NCBI GenBank assembly: GCA_902608975.1
Contig: CACLQI010000001.1
Location: 124,001-188,000 of the forward strand
Length of the DNA: 64,000 nucleotides
Direction of reading: 5' to 3'
Origin: an uncultured Pelagibacteraceae bacterium
GTDB taxonomy: Bacteria > Pseudomonadota > Alphaproteobacteria > Pelagibacterales > Pelagibacteraceae
In this document: positions 8,804-13,011 of the stretch, in pieces
Position numbering within the stretch: position 1 is the stretch's first letter
Layout of the letters: each line of letters starts with the position of its first letter
Notes under the pieces: model-generated
The model's database searches: none
Told to the model about the DNA's origin: nothing
What the model saw: only the letters and a program-made list of their open reading frames with translations
Translations under genes and position numbers: made by a program

Positions 8804-11296
8804 ATGGCAAAAAATAAAATTACAGCTGTACTAGGGCCTACAAATACTGGAAAAACATTTTTAGCAATTGAAACAATGCTTTCATTTGACTCTGGAATGA
8901 TAGGTTTTCCCTTAAGGTTGTTAGCAAGAGAAGTTTACGACAAAATTATTAAAAAAATTGATTCAAAAAAAGTAGCCTTAATCACGGGTGAAGAAAAAAT
9001 AATTCCTGTAAATGCAAAATATTATCTGTGTACAGTAGAATCTATGCCAATTGACAAACAATTAGAATTTGTTGGCGTTGATGAAATCCAAATGTGCGCA
9101 GATCGCGAAAGAGGTCATATTTTTACAGATAGGCTTATTAACTTACGTGGTGAAAAATTAACAATGTTAATGGGTTCTAGCACGATAAAAAATATAATTT
9201 TAAAATTAAACGAAGATACAGAATTTATTAATAAAGAAAGATTTTCTAAACTTTCCTATGTTGGACATAAAAAAATTTCTCGAATAGATAGAAAAACTGC
9301 AATTATAGCTTTTTCTGCGGAAGAAGTTTACGCAATTGCCGAGCTTATCAGAAGACAAAAGGGAGGAGCAGCTATAGTTATGGGTTCACTTAGCCCAAAA
9401 ACTAGAAATGCTCAAGTAGATTTATATCAATCAGGAGATGTTGATTTTTTAGTTGCCACTGATGCTATTGGTATGGGAATAAACATGGATTTAAATAACG
9501 TATATTTTTCTAATTTAAAAAAATTTGATGGAAAAAAACTTAGACGACTAAATTTATCAGAGATGGGACAAATTGCTGGTAGGGCTGGTAGGTATTTAAA
9601 CGATGGAAGTTTTGGAATCACTGGAGAATGTGATAAAATTAGCTCTGATGAAGTAGAATTAATAGAAAGACATAAATTTGAAGAAATTAGAACGTTATTT
9701 TGGAGAAATTCTGATCTTGATTTTAGTAATGCATCCAATTTAATTAAATCTTTAGATCAAAAACCAAAACAGGATTGGTTAAGAAGAATTAACGAATGTG
9801 AAGACGAAAAAGTACTAAAATATTTTTTAAAAGATCTTACTAAAAACAACATATCTAATGAAAAAAATGTACTAAATTTATTATGGGAATGTTGTCAAAT
9901 CCCTGACTTTGTAAAAAAAACTTATGGTAATCATTTAGAGGTTGTTAGTAAAGTTTTTGGATTTTTGAGTGGTAAGGATAAAAAGATTACAAATAACTTC
10001 ATGAAAAAACAACTTTCAGTTCTAGATAAACTAGAAGGAAACGTAGACTCTCTATCAAATAGAATTGCCAATGTGAGAACTTGGTCTTATGTATCTAACA
10101 AATTAAACTGGGTTGAAAATCAAGATTTCTGGGTTGAGAGGACAAAACTATTAGAAGATAAATTGTCAGATAGACTGCATGAAGAATTAACTAAAAGTTT
10201 TATTGATAAAAGAGCCAGCGTTTTGTCTAGAGGATTAAAACAAGACATAAATTTTAATACTGAAATTATTGAAAATGAAAAAGTTATAATTGATAATCAA
10301 TTTATAGGTAAGCTAAAAGGCTTAAAATTAGAACTTGATTTAAAAGTTGGAACACTAGATACAGATATAAAATCACTAAAAAAAGCTGCTAGACAAAGCA
10401 TAGGTCCAGAATTCAATAAAAGAATTGAGCAAATAATTAATACTGGTTTGTTAGAAATCAAAAATGATTTTAAAATTTACTGGGGTAATTTTCCAATTGC
10501 TAGGCTGCTAGCGGGAAGAGATTATTTGGAACCAGAAATTACTTTAATTGTGGATGATATAATTGAAGTTAACGAAAAAAGAAAACTAAGAAGTTATCTT
10601 GAAAAATGGGTTAAAGATAAAATTAATTTTATTTTAAAAAACTTAATTGATCTTAAAAGTTTAGAAGAAACTAATCCATCAATAAGAGCTCTAGCTTATC
10701 AACTGTATGAAAATAATGGTGTAGTTAAAAGAGAGACGGTAATTGATTACTTAAATAAGCTAGGTCAAGAAGAAAGAAAAATTTTAAGAAACTTGGGTGT
10801 AAAATTTGGAAGATATCATATATTTCTTTTTAAACTCTTAAAACCCGAAGCTGTTATGCTAAGAGTCCTTCTTTGGAAAAATTTTCATCAAAAACATTTT
10901 GACTTAAATCCACCAAAATTTGGTTTAAATTTTATAGAGGATAAAAAGTTTAAAAATAAAAATTTTATGCTTTTATGCGGATTTGAAAATTTTGATAAAT
11001 ATTTTGTAAGAATTGATATATTAGAAAGATTATTTGTACAAATAATCAATACAAACAAAGAAATTAAAGATAATAATAGAGAGATAAAATTAATACCAGA
11101 AATGTTAAATTTACTGGGATGTAATAAAGAAAGTTTTATAAGTCTAATTCAAAAGATGAACTATAAAACTTTTGAAAAGAATAATGAATTATATTTTAAA
11201 TACCTTCCCAATAAAAATAGAATCAAGAAATTTAGTAAAAAGAATCAATTAAATGATAATCCTTTTAAAATATTAAAGAATATTAACTTTACCTAA
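8804..11296 (+). CDS. SUV3-like DEAD/DEAH-box RNA helicase
   Basis: 830 aa; AVLGPTNTGKT Walker A, VDEIQMCADRERGH, MGQIAGRAGRY. Confidence 0.9.
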   Translation: MAKNKITAVLGPTNTGKTFLAIETMLSFDSGMIGFPLRLLAREVYDKIIKKIDSKKVALITGEEKIIPVNAKYYLCTVESMPIDKQLEFVGVDEIQMCADRERGHIFTDRLINLRGEKLTMLMGSSTIKNIILKLNEDTEFINKERFSKLSYVGHKKISRIDRKTAIIAFSAEEVYAIAELIRRQKGGAAIVMGSLSPKTRNAQVDLYQSGDVDFLVATDAIGMGINMDLNNVYFSNLKKFDGKKLRRLNLSEMGQIAGRAGRYLNDGSFGITGECDKISSDEVELIERHKFEEIRTLFWRNSDLDFSNASNLIKSLDQKPKQDWLRRINECEDEKVLKYFLKDLTKNNISNEKNVLNLLWECCQIPDFVKKTYGNHLEVVSKVFGFLSGKDKKITNNFMKKQLSVLDKLEGNVDSLSNRIANVRTWSYVSNKLNWVENQDFWVERTKLLEDKLSDRLHEELTKSFIDKRASVLSRGLKQDINFNTEIIENEKVIIDNQFIGKLKGLKLELDLKVGTLDTDIKSLKKAARQSIGPEFNKRIEQIINTGLLEIKNDFKIYWGNFPIARLLAGRDYLEPEITLIVDDIIEVNEKRKLRSYLEKWVKDKINFILKNLIDLKSLEETNPSIRALAYQLYENNGVVKRETVIDYLNKLGQEERKILRNLGVKFGRYHIFLFKLLKPEAVMLRVLLWKNFHQKHFDLNPPKFGLNFIEDKKFKNKNFMLLCGFENFDKYFVRIDILERLFVQIINTNKEIKDNNREIKLIPEMLNLLGCNKESFISLIQKMNYKTFEKNNELYFKYLPNKNRIKKFSKKNQLNDNPFKILKNINFT

Positions 11297-11724: not shown

Positions 11725-12047
11725 CATACTTGGTAAATGAAAAATGTATAAAGTGTAAACTTATGGATTGTGTAGAAGTTTGCCCGGTTGATTGTTTTTA
11801 TGAAGGAAAAAATATGCTTGTAATTAAACCTGATGAGTGTATAGATTGTGGCGTTTGCGAGCCGGAGTGTCCAGTGGATGCGATAGTTCCAGACACTGTA
11901 GGGAATGTCGACAAATGGTTAGAATTAAACACAAAATACTCAGAAATTTGGCCCAACATAAATGCCAAAAAAGATCCACCTGAAGACCACGAAAAATATA
12001 AAAATGAAAAAAATAAATTTGAAAAATATTTTAAAGAAAACCTTTAA
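11721..12047 (+). CDS. fdxA: 7Fe/2[4Fe-4S]-type ferredoxin
   Basis: [18 protein letters not shown]...[16 protein letters not shown]. Confidence 0.93.
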
Positions 12048-12804
12048 AAAAAGTAAACCAAAAAAAAGCAAAAAAGCAAAAGGCAAAAAAAAGGTTGTTA
12101 CCAAATCTTTAAAAGTAAAAAAAATTAAAAAAACAAATTTAAATATCCAAAAAAAAACTAAACCAACGCTTAAAAGCGAAAACTTACGAATAACCAAAAC
12201 GAATGAAGTTAAACCAGAAATTAAAAAAATTAAAAAACAAGAAACAGCGAAAAAAGAATACAAACTTAAAGACTATGTTGTTTACCCAAAACATGGTGTT
12301 GGCCAAATATTATCAATAAGCTCAAAAACCATCGGTGGAATTGATGTCCAGTGTTATGATATAAAATTTGAAAAAGATAAAGCAATTGGCAATCTACCTA
12401 TAAACAAGCAAAATCATTTAAGGCCTCTTTCAACCATTAACCAAGTAAATAAATCTATATCCATTTTAAAAAGCAAACCAAAGATAAAAAGATCTATGTG
12501 GAGTAGGAGAGCACAAGAATACGAGCAAAAAATCACTTCTGGAAAAATTTATGAACTTGCTGAAGTTGTTAGAGATCTAAATAAAGGAGACGATTTGATG
12601 GTTGACCAATCCTATAGTGAAAGACAATTATTTGAGAAAGCATATGAAAGAATTTTGTCTGAATTTCAAATAGTAATAGGGGCATCTCACGAAGAAACAC
12701 AAAAAAAATTAGACAAGGCTTTAAAAAGAAATTTAGAAAAACAACAAATTGTTAAAACCGAGATAAAAAAAGAAGAACCCAAAGAAATTGGAACAACTGA
12801 ATAA
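12004..12804 (+). CDS. CarD-family transcriptional regulator with long Lys-rich N-terminal tail
   Basis: [18 protein letters not shown] CarD RID-like domain after about 80 Lys-rich residues. The listed ORF starts at 11962; internal Met at 12004 is a more likely start (overlaps fdxA by 44 nt). Confidence 0.85.
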
Positions 12805-12848
12805 AAAAAAACGCTTCCCTAAACTATGTTTATGAGAAGCGTTTTTTA
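12804..12848. terminator. Bidirectional intrinsic terminator between CarD gene and H1-like microgene
   Basis: AAAACGCTTC ... GAAGCGTTTT stem, A-run 5' and T-run 3'. Confidence 0.8.
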
Positions 12849-12862
12849 AAAAAGAAATTATA

Positions 12863-12934
12863 TTATCTTCTTCTTCTTCTTTTTTTTGCTTTTTTCTTAG
12901 CTTTTTTCTTAGCTTTTTTTCTTCTTTTAGCCAT
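12863..12934 (-). CDS. 23-aa histone-H1-like basic microprotein MAKRRKKAKKKAKKKAKKRRRRR
   Basis: ATG 12934-12932 preceded by CAGGGAGCTAAAG (GGGAG SD); TAA 12865-12863; own promoter and terminator. Confidence 0.65.
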   Translation of the reverse strand: MAKRRKKAKKKAKKKAKKRRRRR

Positions 12935-12982
12935 CTTTAGCTCCCTGTTAGTTTTACGAATCAAATGATTCGCTATTAACTA

Positions 12983-13011
12983 TTTTTATTTTTTTTAATA
13001 ACTTATGTCAA
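12983..13011 (-). promoter_or_regulatory. Sigma70-type promoter for the 23-aa microgene
   Basis: Minus strand TTGACA (13011-13006), 17-nt spacer, TAAAAA (12988-12983). Confidence 0.5.

Follow-up and report, generated by a model that had tools for sequence, protein, structure and literature searches.

A polycationic microprotein gene beside carD

The minus strand of the 64-kb window (the whole stretch of DNA that was analysed) carries a short open reading frame (ORF) that converges on carD and is accompanied by promoter, leader and terminator elements, as follows.

11962-12804, plus strand: carD, the convergent neighbour, with RNAP-binding RID and C-terminal domains by Pfam and a K-rich N-terminal tail of ~105 aa
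12804-12847, both strands: bidirectional intrinsic terminator AAAAAACGCTTCTC...GGGAAGCGTTTTTTTT, common to the peptide gene and convergent carD, recognised by its fold
12863-12934, minus strand: 23-aa ORF MAKRRKKAKKKAKKKAKKRRRRR and its TAA stop, supported by order-wide conservation and a codon-position test
12941-12945, minus strand: Shine-Dalgarno sequence GGGAG, 6 nt before the ATG
12957-12972, minus strand: inverted GANTC pair CGAATCA / TGATTCG, within CGAATC-ATTT-GATTCG, which is also a stem-loop; supported by fold and invariance
12983-12988, minus strand: -10 element TAAAAA after a 17-nt spacer; AAATAAAAAT is conserved in most Pelagibacter loci
13006-13011, minus strand: -35 element TTGACA; TTGAC[AT] occurs in 109 of 110 loci, 38-42 bp from CGAATC

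The G+C content of the window is 28%, and the relatives of its CarD belong to the Pelagibacteraceae, i.e. SAR11 (Pelagibacter). The peptide consists of 11 K, 7 R, 4 A and 1 M, which agrees with the initial annotation, where its 23 residues were described as Lys or Arg save for Met and four Ala. Within the 64-kb window it is the sole ATG ORF of 18-60 aa with at least 60% K/R, and no ORF with at least 70% K/R arose in 60 dinucleotide shuffles of the window. The initial annotation had also proposed that promoter, Shine-Dalgarno sequence, ATG, ORF, stop and terminator follow one another on the minus strand in an arrangement beyond chance. Every one of these elements is found in the sequence: the TTGACA-N17-TAAAAA promoter and the GGGAG and ATG lie where they had been placed, and the shared intrinsic terminator is present at 12804-12847, just beyond the annotated interval of 12863-13011. 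The shuffles and the order-wide conservation described below bear out the claim that the unit exceeds chance. These observations support the view that the locus is a complete, selected transcription unit encoding a polycationic microprotein.

A promoter scan prefers an overlapping -10 element, AAAAAT, which stands 18 nt from the -35 element (10/12 matches). The TAAAAA hexamer lacks the -7 T, and absence of this base has been proposed to render alphaproteobacterial promoters CarD-dependent (PMC8407463). GGGAG precedes 1 of the 57 long ORFs of the window, and GGGAGCTAAA[A/G]ATG is found in 81/81 carD-anchored Pelagibacter loci (80 contigs and the window), a count whose extraction required the string GGGAGCTAAA but which is matched by an unrestricted listing of the loci showing the same string. 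The leader folds with an energy of -12.0 kcal/mol (z -3.0) and the terminator with -19.7 kcal/mol (z -8.0). A strict terminator scan listed none in spite of the strong fold at 12804-12847, and relatives carry equivalent ACGCTTCTC...GAAGCGTTTTTT terminator hairpins. No Rfam family covers the transcript, and the 23-aa peptide has no match in Pfam, including none to the Bac_DNA_binding domain of HU and IHF (PF00216).

A long Lys/Ala-rich, H1-like N-terminal CarD tail (11962-12276 in the window) is found in SAR11 and in several other Alphaproteobacteria (L120, L126, L131). The peptide resembles such Lys/Ala/Pro-rich alphaproteobacterial tails, in that the KKAAPKKVV repeats of CarD at L120 (g9) are similar to the KAAPKKK repeats of the adjoining peptide; unlike the tails, the peptide has a gene of its own, transcribed convergently, and no RNAP-binding domain. 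Together, the K-rich tail and the polycationic peptide suggest a common DNA-contacting theme. Farther along the window, 8804-11296 encodes an 830-aa protein whose DEXQ helicase domain is of Suv3 type (PF22527), a helicase family best known from mitochondria.

Conservation and coding selection in SAR11

The initial annotation would have been contradicted by relatives lacking the frame, start codon or Shine-Dalgarno sequence. When the region after carD was scanned, the convergent ORF was present in 80/80 Pelagibacteraceae contigs. Among 22 further carD loci, from genomes picked to span 11 genera and two families, it was present in 21, and the remaining contig ends too early. Thus, the gene passed in 102/102 informative carD-anchored loci, covering 11 genera and both sampled families of the order. 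Nine more ORF loci were obtained by motif search; because they were found via the motif, they are not independent evidence of presence and stand outside the 102.

Of the 238 nucleotide differences between close orthologue pairs, third codon positions account for 187, and 187 are synonymous; since the pairs are not mutually independent, these figures should be read as a direction, without a P value. Length differences of the coding sequence among the orthologue loci compared are whole codons only. Unlike the coding sequence, its two flanks vary freely: the leader measures 39-45 nt in most loci, and 52-70 nt separate the gene from carD. These sequence comparisons confirm the peptide ORF as a genuine gene that is kept SAR11-wide. 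Outside the order, those carD loci among L123-L152 that come from non-SAR11 Alphaproteobacteria lack a comparable convergent ORF. Other Alphaproteobacteria also have the TTGAC-N-CGAATCA architecture, with no K/R-rich ORF after it in the loci examined.

Two other origins for related sequences were considered and rejected. Many Pelagibacter genomes contain a second GGGAGCTAAAGATGGCTAA match. The one examined (L083, 1466-1548) overlaps, in antisense, a match to the Rfam family rhtB (RF01814), and it is not a paralogue because its context is different and it lies opposite rhtB; going by L083, the only case examined, the second match in many of these genomes is probably the same rhtB-opposite sequence. 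As for a phage origin, nine viral-contig pattern matches encode unrelated proteins, and a search with the 85-aa form of the peptide found no match among phage records.

At 60-105 nt, the Pelagibacter coding sequence is around or under the usual gene-calling limits; the longer forms of the sister family (f2) are presumably carried in databases as hypothetical proteins. None of the open-licence papers that we found links the peptide to a function. In the main text of a study of SAR11 structured RNAs (PMC2704228) there is no mention of carD or of a histone-like peptide, and the ORF may possibly have been listed among the unannotated SAR11 coding regions of its supplement. What is new beyond the initial annotation is the GANTC identity of the leader hairpin and an order-wide gradient in peptide length.

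Orthologue length and likeness to histone H1 tails

Product length is 20-35 aa in Pelagibacter, 21-24 aa in g5-g7, 31 aa in g3, 36-38 aa in g2, 37-50 aa in g4 and 76-91 aa in family f2. The Pelagibacter forms are built of K, R and A only, with occasional P, T or S. The f2 orthologues open with MEELK or MEDLK, followed by KAAPKKK-type repeats, and K+R content is 53-62% in these longer repeat forms. Net charge ranges from +12 to +49 over the twelve forms tabulated, and the orthologues share no fixed residues except their basic ends. A single-sequence AlphaFold model of the 85-aa form consists of helices only, without a globular fold (pTM 0.27). In the f2 leaders (L115-L122), a second small hairpin, CCC-aaac-GGG (CGC-aaat-GCG in g10, an apparent compensatory change), lies over the Shine-Dalgarno sequence, and translational control through it is possible.

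The initial annotation had likened the AKKK periodicity of the peptide to H1 tails, a likeness that the 76-91 aa KAAPKKK-repeat orthologues of f2 reinforce. The family shows Lys/Ala-rich low-complexity repeats and length polymorphism (20-91 aa, AKKK and KAAPKKK units). It shares these features with chlamydial Hc2 and Bordetella BpH1 (PMC2848022), whose short repeats are likewise rich in Lys and Ala and whose lengths vary by whole repeats or codons, and as with those proteins the chain is predicted to be disordered or helical and to coat DNA. Unlike Hc2 and BpH1 (~165-237 aa), the Pelagibacter peptide has 20-35 aa, and the 23-residue chain is far shorter than known bacterial H1-like proteins. 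Because five orthologues of 23-89 aa have no significant match in Pfam or NCBIfam, we name the peptide H1-tail-like and do not file it as an H1-like member.

An invariant GANTC element in the leader

The initial annotation had recognised a 5'UTR hairpin, and the leader does fold as such; it had missed that the arms form an inverted GANTC pair, whose CGAATCA member is unchanged in 110/110 leaders and keeps a fixed spacing to TTGACA. This invariance includes g2-g4, where the stem has moved inward, leaving a hairpin but most of CGAATCA unpaired. Its reverse complement, TGATTCG, fits YGAKTCG, which a passage of PMC7987155 citing Haakonsen et al. (2015) gives as the extended motif assigned to GcrA-activated Caulobacter promoters. 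The right hairpin arm supplies a second YGAKTCG on the sense strand in 75/92 Pelagibacter leaders; outside Pelagibacter this second site is gone or departs from YGAKTCG. Across 80 loci, 250 GANTC sites lie no farther than 1 kb from the ATG; a single 20-bp bin, -40 to -21, contains 156 of them, and the next bin 10.

A GANTC site of YGAKTCG form lies within -40 to +40 of the predicted start site in 110/110 loci, much as GANTC sites lie near the transcription starts of the GcrA/CcrM promoters of Caulobacter mipZ and ctrA P1 (PMC3667746, PMC7987155), and CcrM and GcrA are likewise encoded. N6_N4_Mtase (PF01555) and GcrA (PF07750) were each found in 6/6 genomes. The one methyltransferase checked has a RAMA domain, and its best PDB match is CcrM (6pbd, E 3.6e-141). 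The peptide promoter also resembles that of mipZ in having two close GANTC sites. It is unlike the Caulobacter promoters in that its putative target is an H1-tail-like peptide and in that ctrA is absent from Pelagibacter (PMC2877005). CcrM has been reported in SAR11 (PMC3973325), and a Pelagibacter culture showed 99.86% GANTC methylation with an ori-ter methylation gradient (PMC9516812). Few GcrA targets have been predicted in Ca. P. ubique (PMC7987155), and the literature that we found contains no study of GcrA in SAR11. An inverted GANTC pair that matches the GcrA motif at a fixed promoter position points to methylation or cell-cycle control, and we infer that the peptide promoter is controlled by methylation.

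In the complete Pelagibacter genome G003, GAATC and GATTC are depleted about threefold (415 observed against 1264 expected, and 426 against 1262, under a second-order Markov model). This agrees with the GANTC depletion published for CcrM-bearing Alphaproteobacteria (PMC3973325). CGAATCA/TGATTCG occurs 14 times in the 1.2 Mb of G003, and eight or nine of these sites are intergenic compared with ~6% of the genome, on a simple, crude ORF mask under which one 'intergenic' site, at 119169, looks coding. Two of the 14 are the peptide-gene promoter. Others stand directly upstream of genes that we take, by sequence recognition, to be recA, clpX, clpP and an acyl-CoA synthetase-like gene, and upstream of a divergent gene pair. 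The recA promoter has a GAKTCG core in 10/10 loci, the clpX promoter TGATTCG in 14/14, and the clpP promoter GAKTCG in 3/5, with a further GATTC in one; the variation includes T-to-G changes allowed by the K of the motif. These YGAKTCG-type sites lie just 3' of the -10 element and are conserved across SAR11 genera (L217-L245). With the peptide-gene sites, they suggest that a core CcrM/GcrA regulon exists despite the absence of ctrA. In the recA leaders (L217-L226), a near-invariant GAACAAAATGTGTAC adjoins the GANTC site and resembles the alphaproteobacterial LexA (SOS) box.

Function of the peptide

The explanation that we favour, and to which we give an even chance of being correct, is that an H1-tail-like, nucleic-acid-coating peptide is expressed from a CcrM/GcrA-type promoter. 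The peptide would be a minimal histone-H1-tail-like polycation, 20-35 aa long in Pelagibacter and reaching 91 aa in the sister family, most likely coating nucleic acid, chromosomal DNA foremost, neutralising phosphate charge and so aiding nucleoid compaction. Complete SAR11 genomes have three HU/IHF genes each, and the incomplete genome of the window has two; since HU/IHF are retained, the peptide would act alongside them as an addition. Its gene would be driven by its own strong promoter with CcrM sites matching the GcrA motif just 3' of the -10 element, so that peptide production probably depends on methylation state and, through it, on replication. The stem-loop, expected near the 5' end of the mRNA, and the terminator hairpin would stabilise the ~165-nt transcript. 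Translation of the ORF, DNA binding, action of GcrA and cell-cycle timing are all predicted features of this explanation. A replication-coupled, methylation-gated supply, in which CcrM and GcrA would switch the promoter at fork passage or remethylation and the peptide would coat newly replicated DNA, is a doubtful proposition at present.

By itself, the composition of the peptide cannot tell DNA binding from RNA or polyphosphate binding. The smallest ribosomal proteins (eL41, bTHX, bL37 and bS22/AURKAIP1-type) are ~24-33 aa long and highly basic, and the peptide is like them in its shortness, K/R content and Arg-rich C-terminus. Order-wide conservation of a strong single-gene unit whose leader forms a hairpin would also suit a ribosome- or RNA-binding polycation, whether a lineage-specific small ribosomal protein or an rRNA or mRNA chaperone. 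We nevertheless consider such a role somewhat unlikely in place of a nucleoid one: unlike those proteins, the peptide has no fixed length or family match. Its size follows the number of repeats, between 20 and 91 aa, and only its basic ends are fixed, which would be unusual for a protein seated in a defined rRNA pocket. No ribosomal family is matched in Pfam or NCBIfam, and the sole PDB match of the 85-aa form, to an L29 protein, is non-significant (E 0.52). Polycations bind any polyanion, and a cytoplasmic polyphosphate role is compatible with the sequence; however, the peptide has no signal peptide, no hydrophobic face and no immunity or export gene as a neighbour, so that an antimicrobial-like or stress-related cationic peptide directed at polyphosphate or at membranes appears improbable.

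Other explanations place the function in the transcript. The leader element might be solely an RNA hairpin governing mRNA stability or translation, its GANTC content being incidental, and the flanking pair is indeed A-U, G-U or G-C, and always paired, in the 96 canonical-hairpin leaders, with arm changes mostly to G-U and a hairpin that survives the stem shift of g2-g4. Against this, CGAATCA stays invariant in g2-g4 though largely unpaired, GAATC is fixed in this leader despite its threefold genome-wide depletion, and the motif also follows the -10 element of recA, clpX and clpP with no evident paired arm. The hairpin-only account is accordingly unlikely in our judgement, and RNA-hairpin and GANTC constraints can coexist on the leader. 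That the transcript is mainly a small RNA with an incidental ORF would fit its shortness, its structure at both ends and its lack of a large ORF, and an undescribed RNA is compatible with the absence of an Rfam family. This possibility is very remote, however, given the retained start codon and Shine-Dalgarno sequence, the 187/238 synonymous third-position changes, the in-frame length changes and the longer protein orthologues.

Significance

SAR11 are the most abundant bacteria in the ocean, and their genomes are among the most streamlined of free-living cells; since the gene is nonetheless found in every genus examined, it is probably important. If it encodes a nucleoid peptide, few known chromatin-like proteins would be smaller, and the peptide would serve as a defined model for the least amount of protein with which a bacterial chromosome can be organised. 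The YGAKTCG-type sites at the peptide gene, recA, clpX and clpP are proposed as a testable core CcrM/GcrA regulon that operates without CtrA. Judged from sequence, minimal SAR11 cells may couple the production of a tiny histone-tail-like protein to DNA replication. If replication-coupled supply proves true, it would be a bacterial analogue of replication-dependent histone synthesis, cut to ~20 residues.
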